Below, piece by piece: positions 20,610-41,669 of a stretch of DNA of 64,000 bases. Under the pieces are notes generated by a model. It made no database searches. It was not told the DNA's origin and was given only the letters and a program-made list of their open reading frames with translations. Position 1 is the first letter of the stretch, and every line of letters starts with the position of its first letter. A program made the translations under genes and the position numbers. Location of the stretch: NCBI GenBank assembly GCA_031269465.1, contig JAISZB010000138.1:1-64000 (forward strand). The letters run 5' to 3'. The stretch comes from Clostridiales bacterium (GTDB lineage Bacteria; Bacillota; Clostridia; Lachnospirales; WQUN01).

Positions 20610-22841
20610 TTACCACGGCTCTATGGATACGCATGGTCTCTTTAAAAGCTTGTCCTTATAAACGAATCCATGCGCTTTTACGCCGGATACCCTGTATTTC
20701 ACGCCGTAGTCGTATTCTTCCTCCACCTCGTGCTCCTTGGGATCAAAGACCTCGCCTATCCTCGGAGCATACGAGAGCAGCCCCAGCCTTTTGACATTCT
20801 GCAAGAAGCGATTTTCAAACCGCGTGACTTTTTTATAAAATTCATCGCCGTTATATATATCCCTATGAAATTTTATGCTTTTTTGAAGGATGGAGAAGGA
20901 TACAAGCAGATCTTCGAATTCCCTCTGAGCCAGATTTGATTCCAGCTCAGCCATGCGATTCACTACGCTCTTCATCCTCAAATCGAGTCCATCCTGCTTT
21001 TGGTTTACTTCTCCAATTATGGCGCCGAGATCTTTCGCTAAATCCATCTGAGAGGGCTGCCCCGGATCCTGCGCGCTGGCTGGGAGGCTTGAAATCCTCG
21101 TCAAGACGTCCAGCATTTTTCCCGCCTCGATTTCAGCTTTCTCCAAAAAAGTGAATATCTCTGAAATCTTCTGCGCCTCTTTTTTCGCTCCTGTCACTGC
21201 GGAATTGATTATCCCGTCCCTTTCCTCTTCGGCCCTTCGCATAACTTCCTGCCTGGCATTGCGCAAACTTTCATATTCTTCCGCAAAGCTTGAGAGTATG
21301 GCGCCCATGGGGCCGCTGTCCATGCTGGCCTGGATGATCCGCTCAATTTCCTCCGCTTTTTCCCTGTAGCTGTAAGCTTCTTCCTTATACTTGGCAGCTT
21401 CCGACTCCATCCTTGATTTTTCAGCGTTGACCTTTTTTATCTCTTCCTTTGCCGCATCTATTTCAGCGCGTATGGCTTTAAGGGATATTTCAGCCTCCAG
21501 CCTGTCCTTCTCCAATCCGGCTTCAATTTCAGCCCTTTTGGCTTCATTCTGCTTCAGGCTCCGCTCATACTCAGCCTCAAGCTCTGCGGTTTTAGCCTCT
21601 ATCTCTTCCTGCAGGCCGCTCTTCTTGCCTTCAAGCCTTTGTATCTCAGCGCTCAGCTTTTGGATTTCTACAGTTTGCGCATCTATTTGAGCCTTTGAAT
21701 GATCGAGCTTTCCCAGTTCTTCATTTATCAGAAGCTTGATTTCACTCAGCCTGTCCTCCGAATTTTTCCTGGCAGTATCTATCATTGAGAAATTCGCCGT
21801 CGATTTTCCCAGGAGCTCATTCAGATCCCATAAATCCTTCCGGGTCTCTTCAAGCTTTGACTCATTGCTTCTGCACTCCGCCTGCAAGGATCTAAGCATG
21901 GACTTCTGCTCTTCAATTTCCCGCTCGAGGGCTTGCTTGTCATTCATCGAGAAATTCTTTTCAGGGTAGGATCCCATGCTGTCTGAAAACTTGAGGGAAT
22001 CCTGAAACGCCGGCTGAGAGAATTGGCTGCTTGACGGCGGCTGAGAGAATTGGCTGCTTGACGGCGGCTGAGGATATTGGCCGCTTGACGGCGGCTGAGG
22101 ATATTGGCCGCTTGACGGCGGCTGAGGATATTGGCCGCTTGACGGCGGCTGAGGGAATTGGCTGCTTGACGGCGGCTGAGGATATTGGCCGCTAGACGGC
22201 TGCGGGGGATATTGTCCGCTTGGCGGCTGAGCAGGATATTGGCCGCTTGAATTTTCGGAATACAAAGCCCTCTCAGAGAACTGTATGGACGGCTTTTCCG
22301 CGTACTTGGGCCTTTCAGGGAATTGGCCGGGGGATTTTTCGAGGTACTGAATCCTCTCAGGAAATGCCGCGGGCCTTTCCATAGGTATGGAAAGCTTTTT
22401 CTCAGGTGCGGCGCCTATGTCCTTAGGCTGATTCACCTTTGAGAACATGGGGGAAATCGCCCCGGAATTCCTGGCCTTGCGCCCTGCGCTGTCGTTTATG
22501 ATCGTCTCCAGATCGCTTCTGATATAGATGACATCCTCAGGCTTCACCGGAGCCCATGGATACCTGTACTGCTGAGCGTAGGCTTCAGGTTCGGGCCATT
22601 CGAAATTATCTATTCTAGCCATGCACATTTCAATGATTGATTTCGCGAAGTAACGGCACAATTCTTTTGATTTATAGATGGCATCCAGCAAAGTGCAAGA
22701 ATATAAGGAATCAAGCTCAACCTGCACTCTTCTCAGGATCTCAAGCGCATAAGTCTCCCCGGCATTGTTGTCTATGCTATAAACATAATAGTCGTATGCG
22801 CTTGCGTCAGCAGGCAACGCATATAGCTGGCTCAAAAGCAT
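20610..22841 (-). CDS. Long coiled-coil protein with proline-rich repeats and a C-terminal GrpE-like domain
   Basis: 743 residues. The N-terminal 125 residues are a helical region of unknown family. A low-complexity region contains about nine copies of a nine-residue repeat (QYPQPPSSG, residues about 196-275). A very long charged coiled coil spans about 295-600. The last 85 residues resemble the C-terminal beta-wing of the Hsp70 nucleotide exchange factor GrpE: GLLSYAPRIGEVFDPKEHE, with the FDP-H pattern, and VSGVKAHGFVYKDKLLKRPC ending in a hydrophobic strand. Classical GrpE proteins have about 190 residues, so this would be a large fusion. No dnaK or dnaJ is nearby. ATG at 22841 has a close GAGG; the TTG two codons on would be better spaced. 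Confidence 0.7.
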   Translation of the reverse strand: MLLSQLYALPADASAYDYYVYSIDNNAGETYALEILRRVQVELDSLYSCTLLDAIYKSKELCRYFAKSIIEMCMARIDNFEWPEPEAYAQQYRYPWAPVKPEDVIYIRSDLETIINDSAGRKARNSGAISPMFSKVNQPKDIGAAPEKKLSIPMERPAAFPERIQYLEKSPGQFPERPKYAEKPSIQFSERALYSENSSGQYPAQPPSGQYPPQPSSGQYPQPPSSSQFPQPPSSGQYPQPPSSGQYPQPPSSGQYPQPPSSSQFSQPPSSSQFSQPAFQDSLKFSDSMGSYPEKNFSMNDKQALEREIEEQKSMLRSLQAECRSNESKLEETRKDLWDLNELLGKSTANFSMIDTARKNSEDRLSEIKLLINEELGKLDHSKAQIDAQTVEIQKLSAEIQRLEGKKSGLQEEIEAKTAELEAEYERSLKQNEAKRAEIEAGLEKDRLEAEISLKAIRAEIDAAKEEIKKVNAEKSRMESEAAKYKEEAYSYREKAEEIERIIQASMDSGPMGAILSSFAEEYESLRNARQEVMRRAEEERDGIINSAVTGAKKEAQKISEIFTFLEKAEIEAGKMLDVLTRISSLPASAQDPGQPSQMDLAKDLGAIIGEVNQKQDGLDLRMKSVVNRMAELESNLAQREFEDLLVSFSILQKSIKFHRDIYNGDEFYKKVTRFENRFLQNVKRLGLLSYAPRIGEVFDPKEHEVEEEYDYGVKYRVSGVKAHGFVYKDKLLKRPCVSIEPW
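22012..22259. repeat. 27-bp in-frame tandem repeat (about nine units) coding a Pro/Gln/Ser-rich linker
   Basis: The unit TTGACGGCGGCTGAGGATAT and variants repeats every 27 bp. Some units are identical over their full length, which points to recent expansion by slippage or recombination. All copies keep the reading frame of the GrpE-like protein. Confidence 0.9.
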
Positions 22842-22933
22842 CACCTCATTTCATGGATTTTCCGATATGCGTCCTAGCATGATTTACGCCGCCGCGCATT
22901 CAAACGCTCCGTCCTTAACATCTTGCCCCCTGC

Positions 22934-23059
22934 TATACTGCTTTTCATATAAAACCGCCTTTTTTGGAGCTTGATTATACAGCGAGTGCGAAATGCATTT
23001 CGCACCTTTCAATGGATACTCAAGCTCCAAAAAAGAAACATTTGATGAAAAGCGGTATA
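22934..23059 (+). repeat. Interspersed palindromic repeat, CTTTTCAT-end type
   Basis: The ends are TATACTGCTTTTCAT and TTTGATGAAAAGCGGTATA. The centre is shortened to GTGCGAAATGCATTTCGCAC, itself a perfect palindrome. It lies in the gap upstream of the GrpE-like gene. The remainder of 22842-23422 holds no gene. Confidence 0.9.
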
Positions 23060-23422: not shown

Positions 23423-23454
23423 AAAAGGCCTCGGCTAAAGTCGAGGCCTTTTTT
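23423..23454 (-). terminator. Intrinsic terminator of the duplicated-domain stalk protein gene
   Basis: The stem AAGGCCTCG/CGAGGCCTT has an 8-nt loop. It is flanked by an A run and a T run (usable in both directions) and abuts the stop codon. Confidence 0.88.
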
Positions 23455-25517
23455 CAACCTAAATTGACATTTATATAAACCGCTCTCTGCTCCGCATTCC
23501 ATTCCACGCTCGCTGCGAAGCTTTCCGCCACCGCCCTCACCGGAACTAACAGCCTGCCGGCCTCCGTCAATTGCGGAGGAGCATCCAGGGGGATATAGCG
23601 GCCGCCAATTGTCATTTCATTGACTCCAACAGTCATCTCCACTATCGCGCCCCCCTTCTCAACTTCCACGGTCTTGGCCTGGCTGTCCCAGTTGACGGTT
23701 GCGCCGAAGCTTTCAGATATTCCCCGGATCGGAACGAATATCCTGCCGTTATCATTTATAGGCGCCTGATCGAAGGCAACTTCATTGCCATTTAGGAATA
23801 TGCGTATTCTGACTCCCGGCTCGGCTTCATATGAATCCATAAATTCTCTGACCGCGCCCTGGGCAAAGGTTGTTCCAGACGCCTTGCTGTAGAGCGGAAG
23901 GGCGTCGCCCCGGAGGCTTGCCACCTTATAAGAGGATTTTTCATACTGGGCTTTGAAGCCGGCGTATTTTTGGACGTACTCGCTTCTTGGGATATCCTCT
24001 CCATTGTACTCGTATCTAGACAGTCCCGTTTCGGAATTCTCGTACCAGTTGAACACCCTGTCATCGCTTCCGAGAATTTCGTTGGGCCGGTAATAAGAGT
24101 CAATCATTTTGCTGAGATCTAGGTCTTTCCTGAAAAGGATTTTGTCAGATTCCACATGGGCGGGGCTTGTGTTATATGAGGTTGATATGTAAGTGAAGCT
24201 TCCGTCATTCACATTTTGGTATAGATTGAGGAATTCGGAGTATATGTCATAGGGATGCGAGATTGAAGAAAGATAGTTTAAATCCTCAACTTTCGGATGA
24301 GGATTTCCGGAATCCAGATAGAACAGCTTGGCCTTTTTCTCTATGATGGTGTAAGCCGCAACTGTGCCGCTCGCTCCGCCTATGTCGCCGTAAATGAACA
24401 GTTCGGGCGTCCCGTCGAAGTTTACGTCAGCCAGCTCCAATGCGGTGATTTCGATGTGAATCCCTTGAAAGTAAGAGTTTTCCAAGAGATCGTAGGCTCT
24501 GATGTCATTTATGGTATCATTTATCCTTTTTTCGTATATGCTTTTCCACTGAACGCCCGCTTCATAAGAAGCTGCGCCCGCAGGCCTGGGAGTGGGGGCG
24601 GCCGCGCTTGTGGGCGCCGCGCTGGGATTGCTGGGTTCCGGAATGTAGGAATTCAAGAAATCCAGAACCAGGCTGGAATCATCCAGCGTTTCATATCTCT
24701 CGCGGGAAGATAGCCTGTATAGGGGGCCGTATAGGCTTTGAAGGCTTGCCACTTCGTATGCGGATTTTTTGTAAGCAGACTTGAATTCTTCGTATTTTGC
24801 CAAATACTCGGTTTTCGTCAAGGCTTCGCCTGCTATTTCGTATTTGAACTCACCAGTATTAGAATCCTCGTACCAATGGAATAATCTGCCGTTCGTTATT
24901 GTCTGGTAATAGCTGCCTATGTTCCTGCTAAGATCCGTGGCCGGCCCAAATAGGATTTTGTCGGATTCCACGATAGATCCATTGCTGTTAAAGGAGGTTG
25001 AAACGTAAACTAGGCTTCCATCCTCAGGGTTCTGGTGCAAGTTGAGAAATTCACTATATATGTCTGCGGGATGAGGGATTGCAACTTCAGCAGCCGAATG
25101 CGGATTTCCCCAATTCAAGCTGAATAATTCGGCTGAACCGCCTATTATGGTGTAAGCTGCGACTGTGCTGGCAGCTCCGTCCGGATCGCCGTATATGAAG
25201 AGTTCAGGCGTTTTGTCAAAGTTGATGTCAGCCAGCTCCACTGCTTGAACTTCATGGTTCATGCCTTTATAAGCCGAATAGCCCGATGTTTCGTTTTCCT
25301 TAAGATACGCCACCTGATCGCTTATAACCTTAAGGTATATGCTTTTCCAATCATCGCTGGCCAAAACAAAGGTTGAGGCATGAAGCAAGAGCGTCGCCAA
25401 GGCAACTGCCAAGAATGCTCCCAGGATAGACTTAAAAATGATTAATGATTTCGGGAATGAAAAAGATTTTGGAAGCAAAAATGGTTTTGGGGGCAAATAT
25501 GATTTCAGTCCTTTCAT
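23454..25517 (-). CDS. Exported protein with two duplicated ~270-residue domains and C-terminal copper-amine-oxidase-N (stalk) domain
   Basis: 687 residues from the proposed ATG at 25517 (the frame is open to 25694). A hydrophobic segment (SILGAFLAVALATLLLHAS) acts as signal or anchor. Two homologous domains follow, each starting WKSIY and containing ELADINFDKTPELFIYGD or ELADVNFDGTPELFIYGD, an EF-hand/FG-GAP-like acidic loop that suggests Ca2+ binding. A proline/alanine linker separates them. The last 120 residues are a Cu_amine_oxidN1 (stalk) domain (INDNGRIFVPIRGISESFGA, TEAGRLLVPVRAVAESF). The start is chosen because AAAGGAGG (25563-25570) is joined to this ATG through a stable hairpin; the upstream ATG at 25694 lacks a ribosome site. 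Function unknown, probably at the cell surface. Confidence 0.8.
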   Translation of the reverse strand: MKGLKSYLPPKPFLLPKSFSFPKSLIIFKSILGAFLAVALATLLLHASTFVLASDDWKSIYLKVISDQVAYLKENETSGYSAYKGMNHEVQAVELADINFDKTPELFIYGDPDGAASTVAAYTIIGGSAELFSLNWGNPHSAAEVAIPHPADIYSEFLNLHQNPEDGSLVYVSTSFNSNGSIVESDKILFGPATDLSRNIGSYYQTITNGRLFHWYEDSNTGEFKYEIAGEALTKTEYLAKYEEFKSAYKKSAYEVASLQSLYGPLYRLSSRERYETLDDSSLVLDFLNSYIPEPSNPSAAPTSAAAPTPRPAGAASYEAGVQWKSIYEKRINDTINDIRAYDLLENSYFQGIHIEITALELADVNFDGTPELFIYGDIGGASGTVAAYTIIEKKAKLFYLDSGNPHPKVEDLNYLSSISHPYDIYSEFLNLYQNVNDGSFTYISTSYNTSPAHVESDKILFRKDLDLSKMIDSYYRPNEILGSDDRVFNWYENSETGLSRYEYNGEDIPRSEYVQKYAGFKAQYEKSSYKVASLRGDALPLYSKASGTTFAQGAVREFMDSYEAEPGVRIRIFLNGNEVAFDQAPINDNGRIFVPIRGISESFGATVNWDSQAKTVEVEKGGAIVEMTVGVNEMTIGGRYIPLDAPPQLTEAGRLLVPVRAVAESFAASVEWNAEQRAVYINVNLG

Positions 25518-25570
25518 GAAGGCTGCGGCAGGCCGTCTCCGCTGAGCCGGAGAAGCCTCCGCCCTCCTTT
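25518..25570 (-). promoter_or_regulatory. Ribosome binding site with hairpin in the SD-to-start spacer
   Basis: SD AAAGGAGG (25563-25570) is followed at once by a hairpin. GCGGAGGCU (25554-25562) pairs with GGCCU-G-CCGC (25525-25534, one bulged G). An inner stem UCUCCG/CGGAGA (25548-25553, 25536-25541) has loop GCUCAG. Seven nucleotides separate the hairpin from ATG 25517. Confidence 0.65.
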
Positions 25571-25963
25571 CCGTCAATCGACATTTTTCTTTTTTCAGCT
25601 TTTCCAGCGGCGCCTTGCCTTTTCTTTCAAGCATCACTCCCTCTGCAAGCGTTCGCCTTTGGAGTATAATAGATATATTGCATTCCGTTTTCATTATATC
25701 CCATTTAGTTTAACAGCAAAAGACTTAATTTGTAATTTTTAGGTATTATTTCTGTTTTATGGTTTGATTCGATAATCCCGCACTGCCGCTGTAAAGAAAT
25801 GGGAAAGGAGGCCGATATTCTCCTCATTCTTTTATGGGAAGCATAATCTTCACGGCCTCATTGGCATTGGAGCCCTTAAAAATTTCTTTCCACTCATTGC
25901 GAGTTTAGTACAAACATGATAAAATGGCTAAAGAAGAAAAACCGTCGAAGTAGGAGGGCATTT

Positions 25964-26860
25964 ATGAACTACCTGAAGAACAATCCGCGCAAATGCATCA
26001 CAGTTGCGGCCTATCTAGCCGCAGCGGCAATCTGCGGCCCCATCCTGCATGTTTCCGGAGTCGTTATGATCCTTACGCTAGCGCTTCTTACATTAGCCCT
26101 TATTATAATTTTCCTCCCTGCAACCCTTGCCGTTGCTGGCAATTACCTCTATGCCACAGGAAGCGCCGAGCGGGCTGTCCCCATTCTAAAAAAAGCCATA
26201 GACAAAAACACGCCAAGCCCCGCCGCCCACGTGAATTACGCCATATACCTGGTGAGGGGCGGAAAGGGAGAAGACGCCCTCTACTACTTGGACAAGGCCT
26301 CAAAGCTTAAGCCTGACATCATGACTCAAAAAAATATCGAACTGACTAAGGCCAGTTGCTTTTGGACCATCGGCAAAGTCGATGACGCCGTAAATATCTT
26401 GGAGGCTATGAGGGAAAAATTTGAATATGTAAATGCCCATGTGCTTACAACCCTGGGATATATGCACTTTCTTCAGGGAAATCTAGAAAAGGCTGAAGAC
26501 ATCACACGGCAGGCGATAGAAGACTCGCCTGAAACCGGTTCAGCTTGGGATAATTTAGGGCAGATAAGCTTCAAGCGCGGAGATTTCGAAAGCGCCAAGG
26601 CGCATTTTGAAAAAGCCGTCGAGTACAAGGCCGACCTCCCTGACAGCCATTACTACCTAGGACTCCTCGCAGAGCGGGAGAACAGTCTTTTCGAGGCTAG
26701 AGACTGCTATTTAAGAGCTTCATCATGCAATATATCAGCCCTTAACACTGTCACAAGGCAACAGATAGACGACAGGCTGAGAGCGATAAAGGAAGCCTTG
26801 GATGCTCAGGATGCAGGCGAAGAAGCTGAGAGTCCGAGTGATGAGGAGGAACCCAGCTAA
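25964..26860 (+). CDS. TPR repeat protein, membrane-anchored
   Basis: 298 residues from the ATG at 25964, which is preceded by AGGAGGG; the frame is open from 25916 but lacks a good ribosome site. Two adjacent hydrophobic stretches (about 13-55) form an N-terminal membrane anchor. Tetratricopeptide-type helical pairs follow, for example SPAAHVNYAIYLVRGGKGED, VLTTLGYMHFLQGNLEKAED, SAWDNLGQISFKRGDFESAK and DSHYYLGLLAERENSLFEAR. The C terminus is acidic. It is likely a cytoplasmic or surface scaffold for protein interactions; no partner is evident from neighbours. Confidence 0.85.
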   Translation: MNYLKNNPRKCITVAAYLAAAAICGPILHVSGVVMILTLALLTLALIIIFLPATLAVAGNYLYATGSAERAVPILKKAIDKNTPSPAAHVNYAIYLVRGGKGEDALYYLDKASKLKPDIMTQKNIELTKASCFWTIGKVDDAVNILEAMREKFEYVNAHVLTTLGYMHFLQGNLEKAEDITRQAIEDSPETGSAWDNLGQISFKRGDFESAKAHFEKAVEYKADLPDSHYYLGLLAERENSLFEARDCYLRASSCNISALNTVTRQQIDDRLRAIKEALDAQDAGEEAESPSDEEEPS

Positions 26861-26926
26861 AAGCGCTGCGCCCGCGAAGAGGAATGGCCGGGCCGCTTCC
26901 TCATTGAACCCGATTGCTTCCTTTTC

Positions 26927-26983
26927 TATGCTGATTTTCATGGAAAATTACCTTTTAAAGAGCATTGAATGAAAATCGGCATA
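26927..26983. repeat. Solo short palindrome, outer arms only (ATTTTCAT type)
   Basis: A 57-bp form, TATGCTGATTTTCATGG ... AAATTACCTTTTAAAGAGCA ... TTGAATGAAAATCGGCATA, with the core missing. It lies just after the TPR gene. Confidence 0.8.
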
Positions 26984-27112
26984 GCGGCAATGGAACCCTC
27001 CATTTTAAGGCATAGGCGGCCCGCCATAGTTTTTGGCATTTGCTAAGAAAAATGAAGCTGACCGATGAGATTTAAGAAACAATAATATAAAGTCAACATA
27101 GGAGGTTAATTA

Positions 27113-29209
27113 ATGAAAATCTACTCGTCCGGCAACATCAGAAACGTGGCCGTCCTGGGCCATAGCGGCTCTGGCAAAACTACAATCATGGAGGCCGCGC
27201 TGAACATCGCAAAGATTACAACGCGCCAAGGCCGGGTCGAGGACGGAAACACCGTCAGCGACTACGATGCGGAGGAAATCCGCAGGAAGGTCTCCATCAG
27301 CGCTTCGATCATCCCGATAGAATGGCTGGACAATAAGATAAATTTCATTGACGCTCCAGGCTATTTCGATTTTGTAGGCGAGGTGAAAGAAGCCCTCGCG
27401 GCTGCGGATCTCGCGCTTATAGTCGTCTCAGCTAAATCCGGAGTAGAGGTAGGCACTGAAAAAGCTTGGGAATTCGCCACAGAGCTTGGAATTCCCAAGA
27501 TCATTTTCGTAAATAGCATGGATGATGAAAACGCTGATCTTGACAAGGTCGTTGACGAACTGAAAAACTCATTTGGAAAGAGCATCGCGCCCTTGCAGGT
27601 GCCTTTCAAGGAAAACGATAAATTCGCGGGATTTGTAAACGCCATCAAAAAAGAGGGCAGAAGATTTGTAAACGGCAGGACTGAGCCGTGCGAAGTGCCT
27701 GAGGGCATGGAAGCCGAGGTGGAAGTCATGCATGCGATGATAGAGGAAGCGGTTGCGGAAACCAGCGATGAGCTTATGGAAAAATTCTTTATGGAAGAGC
27801 CTTTCACTGTGGAAGAAATCCATGAAGGCATCCGCTCCGGAATTGAATCAAACTCTGTAACGCCAGTATTTTGCGGCGCGGCCGTAAGCCAGATAGGCGT
27901 GCGCGTCCTCATGAACTCTATAATAGAGTACGCTCCGTCAGCTGAGCGCATGAGAAAGGCAATTGACGCGCTGGATGTCAAGGCCGGCAAAGAGGCTGAG
28001 ATCGGCTGCACGGACAATGATCCTCTCGCAGCCTTCGTCTTCAAGACGATCGCTGATCCTTTCGTAGGGCGCCTGAGCATCTTCAGGGTTTTCTCAGGGA
28101 TGATAAAAAAAGACACGCCTCTTTACAACGCAAGCTCAGACGCTTTTGAAAAAGCCGGGCATCTGTATATAATGCGAGGCAAAGAGCAGATTGAAGTCGA
28201 TGAAATACACGCCGGTGACATAGGAGCGATAGCCAAGCTCCAAGCCACCGCGACTCAGAACACATTAAGCTCGAGGGAGCGCCCCTTGGAGCTGAAAAAA
28301 ATCGACTTTCCAGAGCCCCTTCTATCCATGGCAGTCGTGCCAAAGGGCAAAGGCGACGAAGACAAGATCTCCCAAGCTTTCTCGAAGCTTCTTGAAGAGG
28401 ATAAAACCATGCGCTTCGAGATAAACAAGGATACGAAGCAGACAATAGTCTACGGCCAGGGCGACAGCCATTTGGATGTGCTCGTCAACAAGCTGAAAAA
28501 CAAGTACAAAATAGATGTAGCCTTGGAAACTCCCGTCATTCCTTACAGGGAAATGATAAAGAGCAAAATCCGCGTCCAGGGCAAGTACAAGAAGCAATCC
28601 GGCGGCCACGGCCAGTACGGCGACGTCCATATGGAATTTGAGCCTTCCGGGGATTTAAGCGCGCCCTATGTATTTGAAGAGAAGATCGTAGGCGGCGTAG
28701 TGCCGCGCCAGTATTTTCCGGCTGTTGAAAAGGGCATACAGGAGTGCGTAAAGGCAGGCCCCCTTGCGGCCTTTCCTGTTGTAGGCATAAAGGCTACCCT
28801 TGTATTCGGCTCGTACCATGCTGTCGACTCATCGGAAATGGCGTTTAAAATGGCAGCATCCATGGCCTTCAAGGACGGGTTCATGAAAGCCAAGCCCACT
28901 ATTTTGGAGCCGATCGCAAAGGTCGACGTCTATGTGCCAGACGACTACACCGGAGACATCATGGGTGATATGAACAAGCGCAGGGGCAGAATCCTGGGCA
29001 TGGACAAGGTAGGCGCGAATCAGAGGATATCAGCTGAGGTTCCGATGGCTGAAATATTCAAATACACCTCTGACCTGCGCTCGATGACTCAAGGCAGAGG
29101 CCGCTACACTATGGAATTCCTCCGCTATGAGGAAGCGCCCGCAGAGGTGCAGCTGAAGGTCATTGAAGCCAGGAAGAAAGAGCTCGAAGCTATAAGGGAT
29201 AAAGAGTAG
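27113..29209 (+). CDS. Elongation factor G-like GTPase (EF-G paralogue)
   Basis: 698 residues with the five-domain layout of EF-G. The P-loop is GHSGSGKTT (16-24). The G3 motif is DAPGYFDF instead of the canonical DTPGHVDF. The G4 motif is NSMD instead of NKMD. Switch I lacks the usual QERGITI and reads DYDAEEIRRKVSISAS. Domain IV keeps GGHGQYGDVHMEFEP and the C terminus MAEIFKYTSDLRSMTQGRG. These changes mark the EF-G-like paralogue common in Clostridia, not the main translocase. Its role (ribosome recycling, stress or other) is not established. AGGAGG lies 7 nt before the ATG; a terminator follows. Confidence 0.9.
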   Translation: MKIYSSGNIRNVAVLGHSGSGKTTIMEAALNIAKITTRQGRVEDGNTVSDYDAEEIRRKVSISASIIPIEWLDNKINFIDAPGYFDFVGEVKEALAAADLALIVVSAKSGVEVGTEKAWEFATELGIPKIIFVNSMDDENADLDKVVDELKNSFGKSIAPLQVPFKENDKFAGFVNAIKKEGRRFVNGRTEPCEVPEGMEAEVEVMHAMIEEAVAETSDELMEKFFMEEPFTVEEIHEGIRSGIESNSVTPVFCGAAVSQIGVRVLMNSIIEYAPSAERMRKAIDALDVKAGKEAEIGCTDNDPLAAFVFKTIADPFVGRLSIFRVFSGMIKKDTPLYNASSDAFEKAGHLYIMRGKEQIEVDEIHAGDIGAIAKLQATATQNTLSSRERPLELKKIDFPEPLLSMAVVPKGKGDEDKISQAFSKLLEEDKTMRFEINKDTKQTIVYGQGDSHLDVLVNKLKNKYKIDVALETPVIPYREMIKSKIRVQGKYKKQSGGHGQYGDVHMEFEPSGDLSAPYVFEEKIVGGVVPRQYFPAVEKGIQECVKAGPLAAFPVVGIKATLVFGSYHAVDSSEMAFKMAASMAFKDGFMKAKPTILEPIAKVDVYVPDDYTGDIMGDMNKRRGRILGMDKVGANQRISAEVPMAEIFKYTSDLRSMTQGRGRYTMEFLRYEEAPAEVQLKVIEARKKELEAIRDKE

Positions 29210-29215
29210 GAAAAG

Positions 29216-29270
29216 AAAAAGGATCCGGGAAGGCAAGGGCGAAAGCCCAAGCTCAGCGGATCCTTTTATA
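29216..29270 (+). terminator. Intrinsic terminator of the EF-G-like gene
   Basis: The outer stem AAAAAGGATCCG/CGGATCCTTTT has a nested GGGCGAAAGCCC hairpin. The downstream T run is short (TTTTATA). Confidence 0.82.
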
Positions 29271-29395
29271 ATGATTTGCAGCAATGCGCATTTGGAGCTT
29301 GAGCAACCGCTTTCAATGCGCGAAATGACAGCGTCAATCGCACCGCTGTATAGCCAAGCCCCAAACCAGGCAGCTTCAAATGCAAATCAACGCTA
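29267..29395 (-). repeat. Interspersed palindromic repeat, TTTGCAG-end type
   Basis: The ends are TATAATGATTTGCAGCAATG and CAAATGCAAATCAACGCTA. The core contains TGCGCGAAATGACAGCGTCA and ATCGCACCGCTGTATAGCC. It overlaps the tail of the EF-G terminator. Confidence 0.7.
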
Positions 29396-29432
29396 GATGC
29401 TATGAATAATCCTGCCTGAAAGACATTTCATT

Positions 29433-29521
29433 TATACTGATTTGGACTGAAAGCTGCTCTTTTGAAGCCTCAATTGATAATCGAGCTCCAAAGAAGGCAT
29501 GCTTGAGAGCAAATCGACATG
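29433..29521. repeat. Interspersed palindrome, shortened and diverged
   Basis: The left end is TATACTGATTTGGACTGAAAG and the right end GAGAGCAAATCGACATG. Only the outer arms and GATAATCGAGCTCCAAA remain. Confidence 0.55.
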
Positions 29522-29543
29522 TCCGCGTGAAATTTCAAGCCTT

Positions 29544-30206
29544 CTAAGACAAGCCCAGTCTTAGAAGGAAGAACATTAAAACTATATGGAAAGCGGTGCC
29601 TCCCATGACAAACAGGTGAAACAGCTCATGAAAGCCAAACCATTTGAAATTCAGCCTAGGCCACTTAACGGCGTAGATCACCGCTCCCAGTGTGTATGTC
29701 ATGCCGCCCGCAAATAAAAGCCAGATTCCCGCAGCCGGCAGGACGCGTATAAGAGGGTACAGAGCTATGAGGACTATCCAGCCCATTGATACGTAAATGC
29801 TTGTGGAAAGCCATCTTGGAGCGTCAATCCAAAAAGCTTTGAGCAGAATCCCCGCCACGGCGATAGCCCAAACCAAGCCGAAAAGCGTCCAGCCCCAGGC
29901 GCCTCGAAGCGGCACCAGGCATATCGGCGTATACGTCCCGGCTATCAGAACGAATATCATCATATGATCTATCCTGCGCAAAATGTTGCTGGCATGCTCT
30001 GAGATAGGAAGCATATGATAAATGCTGCTTGCGGCGTACAGCAGAAGAAGCGCCGCGCTGAAAATGGAGAAAGAGACTACATGCCACACAGTGGCGTGCA
30101 GGGCGGACTGAATGATGAGAAGCACTGAGCATGGAATAGCCAGCATAAATCCCACCAAATGCGTCAGGCAGCTTATTGGATCCTTCAATTTTGACAATGG
30201 CTTCAC
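29544..30206 (-). CDS. Hemolysin III / PAQR family membrane protein
   Basis: 220 residues with seven hydrophobic segments. Conserved family positions are DPISCLTHLVGF at the N terminus, AASSIYHML, RIDHMMIFVLIAGTYTPICL, and the C-terminal HELFHLFVMGGTAFH with the metal-binding histidines. The family (YqfA/HlyIII) is related to eukaryotic adiponectin receptors. The bacterial function is uncertain: haemolysis was reported for one member, and a hydrolase-like metal site is conserved. The start is GTG at 30206 with GAGGAC close upstream. Confidence 0.92.
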   Translation of the reverse strand: MKPLSKLKDPISCLTHLVGFMLAIPCSVLLIIQSALHATVWHVVSFSIFSAALLLLYAASSIYHMLPISEHASNILRRIDHMMIFVLIAGTYTPICLVPLRGAWGWTLFGLVWAIAVAGILLKAFWIDAPRWLSTSIYVSMGWIVLIALYPLIRVLPAAGIWLLFAGGMTYTLGAVIYAVKWPRLNFKWFGFHELFHLFVMGGTAFHIVLMFFLLRLGLS

Positions 30207-30571
30207 CGTCCTCTTCTACAATCTGAAATTCACTGTTATTCCGGTTCGCTCTAAATAGGCGTTCGCCTCATCCTCTGCCGCGGGCTTAATCAAGATGCAA
30301 AATCGAGACTTTCTCATTCTCTTCAATATATGCAAATGCGCGTTCAAACGAGGCAATTTCGAAGAGATTTTCCTCTCCAGTATTTTTCGAAGAACATTGC
30401 TATATTATCAAATACGTATAAATATCATGCATGTCTGTCAATTTGCTTATTTTTTTATTTAAATTGAAAAAAGAAATGAGAAAATTTTATCTTGGCTTTC
30501 CTAGCTTTCAAAAGTTTTATTGGAGCTTTTTCTGCGCTTTTTGGAATGCATTGAAGCTTTGGGCGGAGGAT
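30207..30571. other. Intergenic stretch without a gene
   Basis: AT-rich in its second half. No gene, RNA or repeat copy was recognised; it should contain the HlyIII promoter. Confidence 0.4.
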
Positions 30572-30673
30572 TATGCGGATATACGTCAAATGTACCGGCT
30601 TTAGAGCTTGACTGCGCACTTCCGCTCTGTATAATCAAGCTTCAAAATGGGAACTTTCATGCGCGATAAGCAT
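30572..30673 (-). repeat. Interspersed palindromic repeat, diverged
   Basis: The left arm is GATATACGTCAAATGTACCGG, followed by AGAGCTTGACTG and TCTGTATAATCAAGCTTC. The right end GCGCGATAAGCATG is poorly matched. Confidence 0.55.
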
Positions 30674-30798
30674 GCAAGGCCCTTTGGCGTCAAATGAGCC
30701 TGATTTACAGCTTGAATGAAACTTTCACGTTTTATGGCATATCTACTGCGGGTTAAGTGCAACTATTTAGCTAGGCCATCCTCTTTCACCTTGCAAGC

Positions 30799-30930
30799 TA
30801 TAATGCTTTTCATAGAAAACTGCCTTTTTTGGAGCTTGACTGTACAGCGAGTGCAAAAGCCGATATCAATCGCGCCACTCTATGGATAATCAAGCTCTAA
30901 AATCGGTACATTTGACTGCAAATCGGTATA
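30799..30930 (+). repeat. Interspersed palindromic repeat, hybrid ends
   Basis: The left end is of the CTTTTCAT type (TATAATGCTTTTCATAG). The right end is of the TTTGCAG type (TTTGACTGCAAATCGGTATA). The core is complete (GTACAGCGAGTGCAAAAGCC, GGATAATCAAGCTC). The mismatched ends suggest recombination between two subtypes. Confidence 0.83.
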
Positions 30931-31572
30931 ATAGAATAGGCGGGCAGTGTCATATGCAAATTAGAAAGGCATGCAAACCTCAATTGTATTGTCTCTAATC
31001 CCGATGATATTATACCGCATTATTCACTGATTTTCATATGACTGAAAATCAGCATATGATGATGGCTGCTGATTTTGGCGCTTGACTGTCCAAAGAGCTG
31101 TTTCCTCTTTTAGCCGTTCAAAATCTCTCTTTGCTCAGATTTTTTGGAACTGTTCCGACAAATCTATTTGCATTATTCACCAGTCAAAAGAGCATAAAAT
31201 TCTTGCAGAAAAGTTAAAAATTTAAGAGAATATATGTTTGAATTTGAAAAACTTATCAATGAATTTGTATAATTCTTAGATGATGTATATGTTTAAATAA
31301 ATTATATGGATAAATATAGCAGCATTATCGACAAAATTATTCAAAATGACAGTCACTTTGCAAAACGTCGGAATAGCTATGATTTTTTCGGCAATGCCAG
31401 AAATTCTATTTACGACGATATATTTGATTGCGCATGCATCTAAACTGCATTTCTTTGCAGACGATGCTAAATGCTTGCGTCTGCCGTCGGATCTGCGCCC
31501 AGGGTTAATCCTAAGCCGGTTTATCTGCCTTGACGCGTTGCAGGACGCCGGCGGTACAATCGTGGGAGCAGA

Positions 31573-32646
31573 ATGAGCCGCGACCGGGGCGAGAAGGTCT
31601 TGCCGGCCTGCGGCGAAGCGTACTTGCCGGTTGATCCCAGCATGCCGCAGAGCTTCATTTTCCTCCGCAACGAGGCGAAGCGCGCTCGCAAGTACGGGGC
31701 GTGGCTGAAATTATGATTCACTTTCGGATCCTAAGCCTGATCTCGGCGGAGTGTCGCTGGAGAAGTGAATGGAAGAGCTTGAAGCGGTTATAGACGCTAT
31801 GCTGGGAGGCGAGAAAAATGGGCAGTCTTGCGAGGGCGAGGAAATAAATTCGATGCGCAACGCAAGCTGGCGCTGATGAGATGCGGGGCCGATGTGAAAA
31901 TCTATCGGGACGAGCTTTCCGAAGGATTCGCCGCTCCCGCTAACGGCTGCGAATGGGGTCCTGGATCGCGGCGCTATAATGATTATCATAGAAAATCCCT
32001 TTTTTAGCTTGATTATACAGTGTCTCGATGGACAAGCTAAAAAAGGAGCATTGAATGAAAAACGGTATATGCTGGATCCAGGCTAGCGCATGACGGGTAA
32101 ACTTATGAAGCAGTTCAAGCGCGCATGGCTCAGTCCTGCTGGCTGCCCGCCGACTCTTTACAGGGAGCCCGCGCGAATGCTTCCGAGTGGAAGCAACCCG
32201 CTGGAACCCACGCGCTTACAGAAAAGGCGATATTGCATCAAACCAGCGAGGGATAAGGAGATCAGCGTTAAAAGGAAATGCCCATCCTCCGAAGACTGTT
32301 CCCGAACAGCGGGAGGAAATCTAATTCAGACGCGGAAGCTGGCTATAGCGCGGATCCTAATAGAGGCCTGGCGATGGTTCTATGGCCCCACATTATGCTT
32401 GCAATCTCTCAGAGCCGGCATCTTCCGGGCTATAGGCTTATTTGGAAAGGAAACTTGAGAAAAAATAATGCAAAACAGAGCTTCTTCGCAACATCTCTTG
32501 ACCGGATTGCAAGTTTGGGGATGCCCTATTTTGATGGAGGGTTCGTGATGCAGGATGAGCGCGTGAATCTCGAAGCATATTTGTATAGGCCATGCCCTGG
32601 GCTAGAGGGCAACGGCATCGCGTCAAGGATTATGGATGAGGTTTAA
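31573..32646 (+). pseudogene. Decayed coding remnants, possibly of phage origin
   Basis: No intact gene, but coding-like peptides occur in shifting frames: SMPQSFIFLRNEAKRARKYG (31573-31716), a stretch starting MEELEAVIDAML (about 31769), KFDAQRKLALMRCGADVKIY in another frame (about 31844-31985), and a longer frame from 32278 (122 codons). A palindromic repeat (31975-32069) interrupts them. The pieces are reminiscent of small phage structural proteins, but that is an impression only. Base composition is higher in GC than the flanking AT-rich DNA. Confidence 0.3.
31975..32069 (+). repeat. Interspersed palindromic repeat, shortened core
   Basis: The ends are TATAATGATTATCATAG and TTGAATGAAAAACGGTATA. 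The core is reduced to AGCTTGATTATACAGTGTC ... GATGGACAAGCT. It sits within the decayed coding region. Confidence 0.78.
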
Positions 32647-32748
32647 AAGGGCCCGATAAAACGCACGGCTATCATTAAAAATAGAAACCCGGGAATGAAA
32701 GGGCATAAGACTTGCTGGAAGAGATGGAGCAGACGAAGAGTAAGAAGC

Positions 32749-32899
32749 TATGCTGATTTGCACTGAAAGCATCTATTTTGAAACTTGTTCCTATTTTGGA
32801 GCTTGATTATACAGAAAGCGCGATTGATATCGGCATTCCGTACCTGCAAAGTGGCTCGTCAAGCTCCAAAATAGGTGCATTTGACTGCAAATCGGTATA
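32749..32899 (+). repeat. Interspersed palindromic repeat, TTTGCA-end type
   Basis: The ends are TATGCTGATTTGCACTGAAA and TTTGACTGCAAATCGGTATA. There is a partial duplication of the left arm (CATCTATTTTGAAACTTG then CCTATTTTGGAGCTTG). The core is ACAGAAAGCGCGATTGATAT ... TCGTCAAGCTCC. Confidence 0.82.
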
Positions 32900-32954
32900 T
32901 ATATTTAAGGTTGGAAAATCCAGCATTTGTAGAGCAGGAGCTTTCTGCCTTAAA

Positions 32955-34946
32955 TCAACTGAGCCTTTTTAGAATCTCCACGGCTTTCTCCGCGACACGC
33001 TCCGCGTCAAAGCCGAACTTCTTGAACAGAAGATCCGCAGGCGCCGATGCTCCAAATGTTTCCATGCCAATTACGTCTCCGTCCAAGCCCGTATACTTGT
33101 GCCATCCAAACGAAGCTCCTGCTTCCACGGCGAGCCTCGCCCTCACCTTGTTCGGCAGGATTGATTCCTTGTACGATTCATCCTGCTCTTCGAAGACTTC
33201 AAGCGAAGGGGCGCTGATTGCCCTGGCGTTAACGCCTTTCTCCTTTAGGAGAGAGGCGGCCTTTAAAATAAGCTGAACCTCGGAGCCTGTGGCTATGAGT
33301 ATGATATCAGGCGTCTCCTTGACAGAGTCCTTTATTACATACGCTCCTCTTAAAGCGCCTTTGCCCGTTTCCGGCATCAGCGGGAGATTCTGCCTGCTAA
33401 GGGCCAATGCCGTGGGGCCTTTTCGGGTCAAGGCCAGATACCATCCTGCGGCAGTCTCATGGGTGTCGCATGGCCTTACGACAGTAAGTCCAGGAATGCT
33501 TCTCAGCGCCGCCAAATGCTCGATGGGCTGGTGGGTTGGCCCGTCCTCCCCCACTCCTATGCTGTCGTGGGTCATGATGTATGTGACAGGGAGCTTCATC
33601 ATTGCAGCCAGGCGGATAGCGGGCTTCATGTAGTCAGAGAACACGAAGAAACCCGCAATGTACGGCCGGAGCCCTCCATGAAGCGACATGCCGTTTGCGA
33701 TGGCGGTCATTGCGTGCTCCCTTATGCCGAAATGCAGGTTGGCTCCGGAATGATCTTCCGGAGAGAAGTCGCCTTTGCCTTTCATCAGGGTCTTGGTAGA
33801 CGGGGCCAAATCGGCTGAACCTCCGATGAGATTTGGGATCCAATTGGAAAGCTTATTCAAAACCTGCTCAGATGAGATGCGGGTAGCTAAATTCCCCTCA
33901 TAGCTCCAAAAATCTTCTTTCGTCAGAAGATCCAGCGGCAACTTGCTTTCATGCCATATATTCCACTGCTCAAAGTCTTCAGGATGCTCTATGGAATAGC
34001 TCTTCATAAGGCGGTTCCATTTGTCTTCTTCCAAGGCCTTTTCGGATGAGATTATTTCAAAGTGCTTGCGAACTTCTTCAGGAACGAAAAAATCCTCCTC
34101 ATAATCCCATCCAAGGCCTTTCTTCGTTAGCGCCAGTTCATCCGCCCCCAAGGGCTCTCCGTGAGCAGAAGCCTTGCCCTGCTTGTTAGGCGCGCCATAT
34201 CCGATAATGGTTTTTATCTCTATTATTGAAGGCTTGCCTTTTTCTTCTTTGGCGCTTTCAATTGCCTGGGATATGGAGGAAACATCGTTTCCATCATCAA
34301 CCCTTTGAACATGCCATCCGTAGGCGTCAAACCTTTTAAGCGCATCCTCGCGAAATGCTATGCCAGTGCTTCCCTCTATGGTTATATTGTTCGAATCATA
34401 GAGAAGAATAAGCTTCCCCAGGCCCAAAGTTCCGGCAAGAGACGCGGCTTCAGCGGAAATGCCCTCCATGAGGCACCCGTCCCCGCAAAGAGCATACGTG
34501 AAATGATCCACAATCTCAAAGCCGGGCTTGTTGAATCTGCTTGCAAGATAGCTTTCGGCCCAGGCGAAGCCCACGGCGTTCGCTATGCCTTGCCCTAGAG
34601 GGCCGGTGGTGACTTCAACCCCTGTTGTATGGCCGTATTCTGGATGTCCCGGCGTAAGGCTTCCCAGCTGCCTGAAATTCTTAAGATCCTCTATTTCAAG
34701 GCCGTATCCGAACAGATGCAAAAGAGAGTAAATGAGAGTAGAGCCGTGCCCTGCCGATAAGACGAATCTGTCTCTGTCCTTCCAGCAAGGATTAGCGGGG
34801 TTGATTTTTAAAAACTTGCTCCAAAGAGCGTAAGCTGCGGGCGCTGCTCCCATAGGCAGTCCCGGGTGGCCGCTTTTGGCCTTCTGGACAGCCTCAGCGC
34901 TAAGAATTCTTATAGTGTTTATTGCCAGCTGGTCGATTGGCTGCAT
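32955..34946 (-). CDS. tkt: Transketolase
   Basis: A 663-residue thiamine diphosphate enzyme of the pentose phosphate pathway. It moves two-carbon units and supplies erythrose-4-phosphate. Motifs: [40 protein letters not shown], the TPP/Mg motif GDGCLMEG...[31 protein letters not shown] and the C-terminal ATGSEV. The start is ATG 34946 (MQPIDQL), with AAAGGTG 6 nt upstream; earlier in-frame codons lie inside the preceding gene. The talC stop codon ends 1 nt before this ATG, so translation is probably coupled. Confidence 0.97.
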
Positions 34947-34947
34947 T

Positions 34948-35601
34948 CTATTCACCTTTCTTAGGAACTGACTCCCAGTCCGTAAGGAACTTGGCAATTC
35001 CCGCGTCTGTCAGAGGATGCTTGATCATTTGGACTATAACGCTGTAAGGGACGGTAGCGATATGCGCGCCTATCCTGGCGGCCTCTATCACATGTATCGG
35101 ATGGCGTATGCTTGCCGCGATTATTTCGGTTTTTATTTCGTGGATGTTGAAGATATCGACTATCTCTTCAATAAGGTTCATGCCGTCGAATCCGATGTCA
35201 TCCAGCCTTCCCAAGAACGGGCTGACGTATGTGGCGCCCGCCCTAGCCGCAAGGAGCGCTTGCGTTGAAGAAAAGATGAGGGTGACATTTGTCTTGATGC
35301 CTTCCGACGTCAGGATTTTCACAGCCTTCAAGCCTTCCGCCGTCATAGGTATTTTAATGACGATATTTGGATGGATCTTAGCCAAGGGCCTTGCCTCTTC
35401 AACCATTCCCCTGTAGTCCAGCTTAATGACCTCGGCGCTTATGGGCCCGTCCACAATTGATGTTATTTCCTTTACGACCTCGACAAAGTCTCTGCCTTCT
35501 TTGGCTATTAAAGACGGGTTTGTGGTCACCCCGCAAATGACTCCAAGATCATTGGCTTCCCTGATATGCTCGGTGTTGGCCGTGTCCAAGAATAGCTTCA
35601 T
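34948..35601 (-). CDS. Transaldolase-like protein (TalC/fructose-6-phosphate aldolase family)
   Basis: 217 residues, the usual length of the short decameric TalC/FSA family. The N terminus [13 protein letters not shown] and [11 protein letters not shown] are family signatures. The Schiff-base lysine is in [14 protein letters not shown]. It either transfers dihydroxyacetone units (transaldolase) or cleaves fructose-6-phosphate; adjacency to tkt favours a transaldolase. The ATG at 35601 has only GAAAGA nearby, but a strong AAGGGAGGA lies 31 nt upstream, separated by a 9-bp hairpin. The frame is open back to a TTG at 35643, which is less likely. Confidence 0.92.
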
Positions 35602-35640
35602 ATTCTTTCGCGCATGCGTTTGCGCACGCGCTCCTCCCTT
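35602..35640 (-). promoter_or_regulatory. Ribosome binding site with hairpin in the SD-to-start spacer (talC)
   Basis: SD AAGGGAGG (35633-35640) and one A precede a perfect 9-bp stem. GCGCGUGCG (35623-35631) pairs with CGCAUGCGC (35610-35618) across a CAAA loop. GAAAGAAU (8 nt) then leads to ATG 35601. Folded, the SD-to-ATG spacing is 9 nt. Confidence 0.75.
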
Positions 35641-35736
35641 CAAATTCTGATGCTGCGCTTTTAATTATTCCATAGCACTCATTTTTCCCATTTGCTTGGG
35701 AACGCAATCCTCATTCCATAAGATGCATGCCGATTT

Positions 35737-35805
35737 ATATGCTGATTTGCATATGAAATTTCCTGTTTTGGAGCTTGACTGTACAGCGAGTGCGCTCTTA
35801 AGATA
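35737..35805 (+). repeat. Left arm of an interspersed palindrome, truncated
   Basis: TATATGCTGATTTGCATATG and GGAGCTTGACTGTACAGCGA are present; the right arm is missing. Confidence 0.6.
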
Positions 35806-35887
35806 TGGGGCTTGCTTTAGGCAATATATAAAAAGGTGCAAGCCTTATGGCTGCGCCTATTGCTTTCGTTTTTCAGATGTTCAGCCT

Positions 35888-35980
35888 TATACTGAAGATC
35901 TGCATATGAAAGTTCCGATCATGAAGCTGATTATACAGAGCTTACTCCATAATCAGCACATTTGACTGCAAATCGGCATA
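35888..35980 (+). repeat. Interspersed palindromic repeat, shortened
   Basis: The ends are TATACTGAAGATCTGCATATG and TTTGACTGCAAATCGGCATA. The core is reduced to AAGCTGATTATACAGAGC ... CCATAATCAGC. A further decayed fragment may lie at 36065-36165 (TTTTGGAGTTTGATCATCC). Confidence 0.68.
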
Positions 35981-36206
35981 CTTGGATTTAAGGATCTCAT
36001 TATTCACTTTCACGCTGCAAGTCCGGACTTAAGACCGGACTCCTATGCACAGGCCGTCATATTTCTATTTGAAGTCATATGCTCCCATTTTGGAGTTTGA
36101 TCATCCACTTTCAAGCATTGCCGCCACCATGCTTCAAAACAGGCGGCTTCATGTGCAAGTGAAAATGCATCCGCTGTAAAAGAGCATTGTACAGCTGTTT
36201 AACCTC

Positions 36207-36245
36207 AAACCATGAAAAGCGGGCTTCGCCCGCTTTTCATGGTTT
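36207..36245 (-). terminator. Perfect 18-bp hairpin after the TolC-like gene
   Basis: AAACCATGAAAAGCGGGC pairs perfectly with its complement across a 3-nt loop. It lies 13 bp past the stop codon, where a terminator is expected, but no U tract follows (TTTGAGG). The stem contains ATGAAAAGCGG/CCGCTTTTCAT, the terminal sequence of the interspersed palindromes, so it may derive from two fused repeat ends. Confidence 0.6.
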
Positions 36246-36257
36246 GAAATCAAGCTG

Positions 36258-37769
36258 TCACTCCGCCGAGCTTGTTCCGGCAAGAAGGAATGGATGAAGG
36301 ACTGCAAATGCAAGCGTCCAGTGATTGTATTCATTTTTGGCGAGAGCGGTCTCAGCGCTGAGTATTCCAACCTTCGCCTGGTCAAGATCATACAGGGTTA
36401 CCAAGCCCGCCTTGTAGTTCGTGGTCATTGTATTGTAGGTGTTTCTGGCTTTTTCCAGATCAATCTTTAAAGACTTTTCATTTTCCTGCAATTGGCTTAA
36501 CTTGTTGTAAGAGGTCCGCACGGCTGATTCCAGGTTCCTTCTTGTATCCTCAAGATCTCTAGCCGCCCTGTTGTATTCAGTTTCCTTTTCAAGCTTTGAA
36601 TGGACCTCTGTATCAGAGTAATTATCGATTGCGTATTTCGCGGCTTCCATCGCTATCTGCTTTAAAAGGAGCGTGGGATCCTTGTTCACAGCGTCATTTA
36701 TCAAAGCTGTGGTGTTAGCGACTGAAACCGGCGCGACCACCGGCTCAAAATCAACGATGTACTCCTTGTCCAATGGGGCAAGCAGCACTTTATTCAAAGA
36801 GCTCTTGTCATTTTGAACGCGAAGGGCCAGAAGCTCCACGTTAACCTTGTCTTGATCAAGTTCCTGCTGAGCCTTCGTCAAGTCATTTTCGCTTGTCATA
36901 CCCAGGTCAAGCTTGAGCTTGAGATTCTTGATGTTCTGCTCTTTCAGCTTAATGGTTTCCTTTAGCATCTGCAAGTCCATCTCATCTGCGGCAAGCGTAG
37001 AGAGTGAGTTTCTAAGCATGTACTCGGTGGTATGCTTTACAACTTCCTCATTGTGAGGTATGTTTTCCAAAGAGTCCTCAATCTGCCTCAAGCCTCGAAG
37101 CGCTTCAATGAACTGGGCGCTGAAAAGATCAAGGTTTTGAGAACCCAGCATTCTTGTCGTATCAATCGCGTCGTTGTGCTTCTCATTCAGGTAGTCGATG
37201 CTTTCCTGAAGGTTTAGCAGGGTTGAATTCGCGGAAAGGGCGTTTTTAAGCGCCTCTTCATAGGTTAAAATTACCGAGTTGGCCTGAGTGGGCTTGTTTA
37301 TCGCCATTATCTGAAGGGGTTCCAGGCCGGTGTCAAGCAGTATCGTTTTCGTTTTATCCTCCCAGCCTACAGTCGCTCCGAAATACTCGGCTACAAAGCG
37401 CAGGGGAACCATGAGATCCTGCGTGCTGTTTCCGTTTATGAAAGAAGGCGCAACCGGCATCGGAGCAGGCTTCTCGCCATCCCCGTCAATGTAGGCTGTT
37501 TTGTTTGCGACTATCAGAGTCAGCTTTTTATCCCCTTTTGTAAGCGTAGCTGTTCGGGTGACGTCTTTCCACTCAACCTCTACATCAAGCAATTCGCAAA
37601 GCTCCCGCATGGCCATGGTTACGGTGCCGTCAACTGTCAACGGCCTTGTTCTGAAGGCTTCGAACAGCCCGTTGAATTTCAGCGTCAGATCCTGCGAGTA
37701 AGATAGAGTTGCGCTGGTCAGAACCAGCAGTCCTATCATTATTATAATGAGCGGGCCTCTTTTTTTCAT
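36258..37769 (-). CDS. TolC/OEP-like coiled-coil protein with N-terminal copper-amine-oxidase-N (stalk) domain
   Basis: 503 residues. A signal peptide (GPLIIIMIGLLVLTSATLSYS) is followed by a stalk domain (about 30-165: LTVDGTVTMAMRELCELLDV, DLMVPLRFVAEYFGATVGW). Long helices then run from about 180 to 495. They have features of outer membrane efflux (TolC-like) proteins: LTYEEALKNALSANSTLLNL, LKEQNIKNLKLKLDLGMTSE and ending YKAGLVTLYDLDQAKVGI. Such proteins are unexpected in a single-membrane Bacillota cell, where their role is unclear. The ATG at 37769 is preceded by AAAGGAGG joined through a hairpin. The gene follows two stalk-domain surface protein genes on the same strand. Confidence 0.83.
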   Translation of the reverse strand: MKKRGPLIIIMIGLLVLTSATLSYSQDLTLKFNGLFEAFRTRPLTVDGTVTMAMRELCELLDVEVEWKDVTRTATLTKGDKKLTLIVANKTAYIDGDGEKPAPMPVAPSFINGNSTQDLMVPLRFVAEYFGATVGWEDKTKTILLDTGLEPLQIMAINKPTQANSVILTYEEALKNALSANSTLLNLQESIDYLNEKHNDAIDTTRMLGSQNLDLFSAQFIEALRGLRQIEDSLENIPHNEEVVKHTTEYMLRNSLSTLAADEMDLQMLKETIKLKEQNIKNLKLKLDLGMTSENDLTKAQQELDQDKVNVELLALRVQNDKSSLNKVLLAPLDKEYIVDFEPVVAPVSVANTTALINDAVNKDPTLLLKQIAMEAAKYAIDNYSDTEVHSKLEKETEYNRAARDLEDTRRNLESAVRTSYNKLSQLQENEKSLKIDLEKARNTYNTMTTNYKAGLVTLYDLDQAKVGILSAETALAKNEYNHWTLAFAVLHPFLLAGTSSAE

Positions 37770-38100: not shown

Positions 38101-38136
38101 AAAGCAAAAAAACCCCTTGCGGGGTTTTTTTGCTTT
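38101..38136 (-). terminator. Intrinsic terminator of the first surface protein gene
   Basis: The nested stem AAAGCAAAAAAACCCC/GGGGTTTTTTTGC has a TTGC loop and begins 6 bp past the stop codon. Confidence 0.92.
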
Positions 38137-38141
38137 TTAGT

Positions 38142-41655: not shown

Positions 41656-41669
41656 TCTTAAAGCATTAA

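Follow-up and report, generated by a model that had tools for sequence, protein, structure and literature searches.

A divergent GrpE domain on a long coiled-coil stalk, encoded without an Hsp70 gene on its contig in a Clostridiales bacterium

What does a GrpE-type protein serve when no Hsp70 gene lies near it? This question is raised by a gene located on the minus strand of a 64,000-nucleotide stretch of Clostridiales DNA (contig JAISZB010000138.1, positions 1 to 64,000, hereafter the window). The window genome (G000) comprises 7.70 Mb in 391 contigs and is 91.7% complete. It was compared with its sister species (G001) and with other genomes of the order.

The open reading frame covers 20610..22844, i.e., 744 aa from a GTG or 743 aa from the ATG at 22841. 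Since both codons fall within an AGGTGA Shine-Dalgarno-like stretch, the TTG at 22835 is the likelier start. The gene and the parts of its product are as follows.

20610..22835, minus strand: grpE-fusion gene encoding 741 aa if translated from TTG, the likely start; frame open to 22844
22842..22847, minus strand: Shine-Dalgarno-like AGGTGA, identified by eye, preceding the TTG start
22464..22835, minus strand: N-terminal helical domain (head), residues 1-124, common to the sister ortholog (profile A2)
21939..22463, minus strand: Pro/Gln/Ser/Tyr-rich low-complexity linker, residues 125-299
22007..22250, minus strand: 27-bp tandem repeat with SSGQYPQPP-type units (TRF, 9.0 copies, 89% matches)
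21036..21938, minus strand: charged helical/coiled-coil stalk, residues 300-600 (heptad periodicity against shuffles)
20613..20987, minus strand: GrpE domain, short helices and beta-wing, residues 617-741, FDPKEH at 697 (PF01025, A1 profile, hhalign)

The frame is real and coding. Its codon log-odds is +0.36 bits per codon, versus −0.50 and −0.51 for the other two frames; the nine genes used for training score 0.25-0.47 themselves. Codon usage is native in all four segments (head, linker, coil and GrpE) and the 741 codons are intact. The order of domains in the protein is thus helical head, repeat linker, long coiled coil and GrpE.

Homology to GrpE, on which the initial annotation made its claim depend, holds by sequence profile. 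PF01025 gives 29.1 bits with the whole protein, 34.1 bits with its last 116 residues and 30.8 bits with the domain in a six-frame search of G000 (curated cut-off: 25.8). A profile (A1) was made of the C-termini of the window protein and of two sister-species proteins of 551 and 419 aa. Its two best PDB matches are GrpE structures (4ani, E 3.8e-5; 3a6m, E 2.2e-4), the remaining 14 of the 16 chains being at E 0.049 or more. Compared by hhalign with 30 canonical GrpEs, A1 reaches 94% (E 1.1e-7) and the window sequence alone 90%, versus 0.43% for the protein's own coil and 0.24% for an unrelated coiled-coil protein. A chance resemblance is ruled out by these three comparisons, and the C-terminus (about 115-130 residues) is, as judged from the profiles, a true but divergent GrpE domain. 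On the negative side, NCBIfam yields no family for the domain, and for the full protein none of GrpE type (the canonical GrpE of G000 matches 26 families); phmmer with the last 116 residues alone retrieves nothing from the PDB at E<=1. For the C-terminus, AlphaFold2 run on the single sequence gave a poor model (pLDDT 46); a Foldseek search with this model has no match at E<=0.001, and the 50 matches listed include no GrpE. Two other identities were rejected: SMC/Rad50-like coiled coil (SMC/AAA matches are coil-driven and far below cut-offs) and defence coiled coil (PADLOC gives weak coiled-coil matches only, E 5e-4).

The pattern first noticed in the last 85 residues (FDP..H, HG, RP..V) belongs to a match that extends over about 115 residues. 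In the alignment with canonical GrpE, FDP..H (F697), the G of «HG» before an aromatic residue and the final V.I occupy canonical positions, but the «RP» is displaced by one residue relative to the canonical LRP. Moreover, the short-helix motif LLPVxDxLERAL, taken from the canonical GrpE of G000, is replaced: canonical LLPVFDNLERAL becomes LLVSFSILQKSI in the window protein, so that lobe IIB of Hsp70 is probably contacted differently. According to passages of cryo-EM reports (PMC10803776, PMC11685456), the Hsp70 contacts of GrpE are on the beta-wing and the short helices, the beta-wing contact of GrpEL1 being at the FDP proline. The window protein would thus have kept one predicted contact surface and changed the other.

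The canonical family and the window protein are therefore homologous over the beta-wing and the preceding helices (about 115 residues, with FDP..H, the G and the terminal V). They differ in that the window protein has 741 aa with a head, a repeat linker and a long coil, and has neither the short-helix motif, nor an adjoining dnaK, nor an NCBIfam GrpE match.

No HSP70 was found by Pfam on the 66-kb window contig. A profile of 11 Hsp70s from G000 and G001 gives a best E of 0.38 on its 300 ORFs, and tblastn with the Hsp70 and Hsp70-like proteins of the sister locus a best E of 0.79; no Hsp70 pseudogene remnant was thus detected in the window. Of the 12 window proteins scanned with Pfam, all are of metabolic, transport, surface or TPR type, and none is GAP1-N2 or FNIII. 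Two neighbouring features permit the comparison with the sister species.

23454..25694, minus strand: protein with a Cu-amine-oxidase-N1 domain, its gene flanked by the GrpE fusion and the TPR gene
25916..44492, no single strand: flank with TPR, EF-G-like, HlyIII, transketolase, transaldolase and other genes, collinear with G001 (tblastn, Pfam)

The homologs of this flank have the same order on contig C607 of G001 (positions 1-17244, a block of about 17 kb by tblastn), with identities of 81% for the EF-G-like protein, 80% for transaldolase, 74% for transketolase and 48% for the TPR protein. Past the TPR gene, the G001 contig encodes three Hsp70s of 516, 521 and 556 aa (HSP70 Pfam matches of 85-108 bits), then the 551-aa protein, which is also built as head, coil and GrpE, then the 419-aa GrpE protein (28.2 bits with Pfam GrpE). 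The end of the latter is overlapped by a 597-aa protein, without Pfam match, the N-terminus of which looks Hsp70/actin-like by eye. The interval between the TPR gene and the GrpE fusion is thus filled by Hsp70 genes in G001 and by the Cu-amine-oxidase-N1 protein in the window. Between the 551-aa protein and the window protein, homology is found at E 2.4e-20 over coil plus GrpE and at E 1.45e-6 over the head; the repeat linker is missing from the former. From gene order and these matches, the window locus looks like an Hsp70-less version of the Hsp70 cluster found at the matching position of G001. No outgroup carrying this locus was found.

The two orthologs share 36% identity in the GrpE domain and 26% in the head, versus 74-81% for the neighbours. 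Such fast divergence beside conserved genes fits either a changing partner or a relaxed constraint. The second case would make the gene the leftover of a lost Hsp70 operon, its exchange activity gone and its product now a structural coiled coil or adaptor, or simply drifting. This divergence speaks for it, together with the lack of any detected Hsp70 gene or remnant where the positional ortholog has three, the absence of the canonical short-helix motif, and a 27-bp repeat that is not present in the ortholog. Nevertheless, 741 intact codons of native usage across four segments and the retained FDP..H, G and terminal V speak against it. Moreover, it is the orphan that still scores 29.1 bits against Pfam GrpE, whereas the ortholog, in spite of its adjoining Hsp70s, has no Pfam match at E<=0.01. 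Finally, the difference between the loci reflects either a loss of Hsp70s in G000 or a gain in G001. A leftover is considered rather unlikely.

The head profile A2 finds 3 of the 392 genomes of the order at E<=0.01, strongly only the window genome and its sister; the third match (G117) is weak, E 0.008. The head is modelled as all-helix at low confidence (pLDDT 58.5, single-sequence AlphaFold2). By hhalign it resembles the 419-aa GrpE protein of the sister weakly (16%, P 0.0016), and no homology to a 403-aa GrpE of G197 was found (0.3%). In the wider contig search for relatives, a single Subtercola match of 23 residues was taken as spurious.

In the repeat part of the linker, Pro+Gly rises up to 43% and there is no heptad signal. 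The nine-unit repeat noticed at first is confirmed by TRF as a single array of period 27. For the coil, also proposed from the start at about 300 residues, heptad power was compared with shuffles in 56-residue windows. Heptad power exceeds the shuffles with a fraction <0.05 in 5 of the 9 windows across 309-588 (309-364 and those starting at 449, 477, 505 and 533) and of 0.08-0.15 in the other 4 (starts 337-421). The fraction is also <0.05 in both windows covering 561-644. The proposed length is thus a fair description by charge and heptad power, the signal being strongest in 449-644.

If the gene is functional, which Hsp70 does it serve? In G000, 5 GrpE matches exceed the PF01025 cut-off and a sixth falls below it. 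Hsp70-type ORFs with a length of at least 480 aa number 12, none of them on the window contig. About 20 Hsp70-type ORFs are found in G001, some being contig-end fragments. The genomes of the genus are large (7.7 Mb for G000 and 8.8 Mb for G001, versus about 2-3.7 Mb in the family). In the kin group, 59 of 61 genomes have GrpE at E<=0.001, and 40 of them two or more matches. Sixteen stretches around GrpE matches, selected blind to Hsp70 and mostly because their frames were long or unusual, were analyzed with the G000 and G001 loci. This sample holds 22 GrpE ORFs: 4 canonical ones, all beside dnaK, and 18 extra (non-housekeeping) ones from 13 genomes. A same-strand Hsp70 lies within 2.4 kb of 17 of the 18 extra GrpEs, and within 80 bp for 13 (overlaps included). 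The eighteenth, on G001 contig C146, ends 2 bases from the contig end. An extra GrpE of G005, under the thresholds and left out of the 18, is by eye 48 bases from an Hsp70. The Hsp70s that accompany the extra copies examined are divergent. What is new here is the genomic setting, i.e., an extra GrpE without Hsp70 on its contig.

One answer is the housekeeping DnaK (C356), a general Hsp70 that the fusion would tether to a site. DnaK is the one Hsp70 certainly present, the beta-wing residues are of canonical type, and a grouping of the window type with canonical GrpE is compatible with the AU test (p-AU 0.338). On the other hand, the short-helix contact motif is non-canonical, the other extra GrpEs are accompanied by their own Hsp70 in 17 of 18 cases, and part of a review (PMC4753570) restricts modern GrpE to its cognate Hsp70. 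Service to DnaK is considered unlikely.

The other answer is a dedicated Hsp70 encoded elsewhere. Within G000, the paralog nearest to the window GrpE domain is the GrpE of contig C205, where an island encodes vWA, PP2C, kinase, GrpE and a 484-aa Hsp70. A careful Hsp70 tree was calculated on 42 of 55 rows; the 13 omitted ones were long, divergent or redundant and included two divergent G000 Hsp70s (C272; C329 12739-14280). One clade of 8 rows, supported 100/100, unites the three Hsp70s of the G001 locus with those of C205, G145, G286, G197 and G033; the same eight rows are recovered at 100 in a quick tree of all 55. Among the Hsp70s in the tree, that of C205 is the sole G000 member of this clade. 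In the GrpE tree, built on 29 rows and 138 columns, the window type and the C205 type are neighbours at a weak support of 84/48. None of the groupings submitted to the AU test is rejected (C205-type, 0.235; DUF5717-island type, 0.201; canonical, as above). The Hsp70 tree thus points to C205 as partner, and the GrpE tree is neutral and compatible with the pairing. Another member of the clade could lie within the missing 8% of G000. As for the dedicated DnaK homologue that the initial annotation proposed to look for elsewhere in the genome, the C205 Hsp70 is the predicted candidate among the 12 ORFs. The idea of the same annotation that the protein could bring Hsp70 to a site gains indirect support from the three Hsp70 genes preceding the sister ortholog and from the Hsp70 linkage of other extra GrpE genes.

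An even call, in our opinion, is that the window protein is a specialised, stalked, pathway-specific exchange factor of the GrpE type acting in trans. Its likeliest partner is the C205 Hsp70, the only G000 member of the clade linked to the sister locus. In this mechanism the stalk of an ordinary GrpE would be extended into a coiled coil of about 300 residues, through which the protein would dimerise. The beta-wing would open the ATPase cleft of one particular Hsp70, most likely that of C205, and the head, on its flexible Pro/Gln/Ser linker, would dock on a partner, so that Hsp70 would be cycled there.

The comparison with known systems leads to the following observations. (i) Eukaryotic BAG-type exchange factors, which are also domain-fused, offer an analogy for the outline of this mechanism. 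Part of a review (PMC4753570) describes their exchange domains as fused to varied domains, probably recruiting Hsp70 for specific purposes. They are however eukaryotic and of an unrelated fold. (ii) Myxococcus xanthus has a second DnaK-GrpE pair, MXAN_6671/6672, in a bicistronic operon, from what parts of two papers report (PMC11019930, PMC10313047). There too a second GrpE is dedicated to a second DnaK, but this GrpE is ordinary-looking and its DnaK adjoins it. (iii) The C205-type island, for which no published name was found, contains the closest G000 paralog and an Hsp70 of the sister-locus clade. In C205, G145 and G286 another N-terminal region precedes GrpE, with a charged helical stretch between the two in G145 and G286. 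The island differs from the window gene by this N-terminal region and by its adjoining Hsp70. (iv) In part of the description by Kaur et al. 2020 (PMC7159879), some 14% of GAP1-N2 neighbourhoods contain Hsp70 plus GrpE, for the most part in actinobacteria and firmicutes. An extra GrpE outside housekeeping is common to these systems and the window, and such a locus exists in G025. On the contrary, no GAP1-N2 (the defining gene), FNIII or Hsp70 gene was found near the window gene, and its head and coil are absent from that part of the description. In the parts of the literature on GrpE domains and fusions that were covered, no long-stalk bacterial protein of this architecture was found.

Points (iii) and (iv) bear on a last alternative, i.e., that the protein is a regulatory part of an Hsp70-centred conflict or stress-signalling system, either GAP1-N2-like or kinase/PP2C/vWA-like. 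The neighbourhoods of Kaur et al., the G025 locus, where GAP1-N2 (57.5 bits) lies beside GrpE and Hsp70-vWA, the related GrpE in the vWA/PP2C/kinase/Hsp70 island of C205 and the fast divergence are all in line with it. However, the 12 window neighbours examined by Pfam are of the metabolic, transport, surface or TPR kinds given above, and PADLOC yields only the weak coiled-coil matches at E 5e-4. We regard it as very improbable.

A wider picture, in which the stalked exchange factor would be one case among several, can be drawn tentatively, though it is rather unlikely. The genus would have several dedicated Hsp70 systems, in each of which the domains added to the GrpE variant would set the site of action; the window gene would have lost the Hsp70s of its locus and would borrow that of C205 in trans, its head docking elsewhere. 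If true, it would be a bacterial counterpart of the eukaryotic targeting exchange factors. Should the site of action of bacterial Hsp70s be chosen by exchange factors, as fused domains may choose it for the eukaryotic ones, the window protein would be a clean test: it has a single stalk and a single head, its locus is free of Hsp70, a candidate partner can be named, and the sister species has the Hsp70 genes in place.

Other Hsp70 loci of G000 were noticed. Contig C329 (L029, 2853-19573, plus strand) carries DUF5717, Hsp70, a 645-aa GrpE protein, a degenerate Hsp70, Hsp70 and Hsp70-vWA; homologous GrpE or Hsp70 genes occur in several families of the order, and a literature search by DUF5717 found no paper on this type of island. 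Contig C23 (L028, 6048-8975, minus strand) encodes a 975-aa protein with an N-terminal GrpE and a long acidic tail, with two Hsp70s nearby. Contig C272 (L034, 5993-8626, minus strand) has a very divergent 542-aa Hsp70 followed by a 330-aa coiled-coil protein without GrpE match, possibly another type of stalk partner.

The window also contains three non-coding elements.

38-258, minus strand: HEARO RNA, 140.3 bits (gathering 83), at the window edge
10977-11165, minus strand: 6S RNA, 57.3 bits (gathering 46.4)
22954..23034, no strand assigned: palindromic repeat copy, intergenic, upstream of the grpE-fusion gene (motif match)

The last one is a copy of an interspersed palindromic element of about 80 bp, TTTTTTGGAGCTTGA ... 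TCAAGCTCC. Its core motif, with up to 2 mismatches, has 23 matches in the window versus 0.38 expected. A longer exact pattern is found in G000 211 times forward and 206 times reverse (each palindromic copy being counted once per strand) and has no match in the sister genus member or in 19 other relatives. The element is MITE-like and apparently the product of a species-specific burst. The 191-nt stretch that holds the copy upstream of the GrpE gene has a strong RNA fold (z −7.0).
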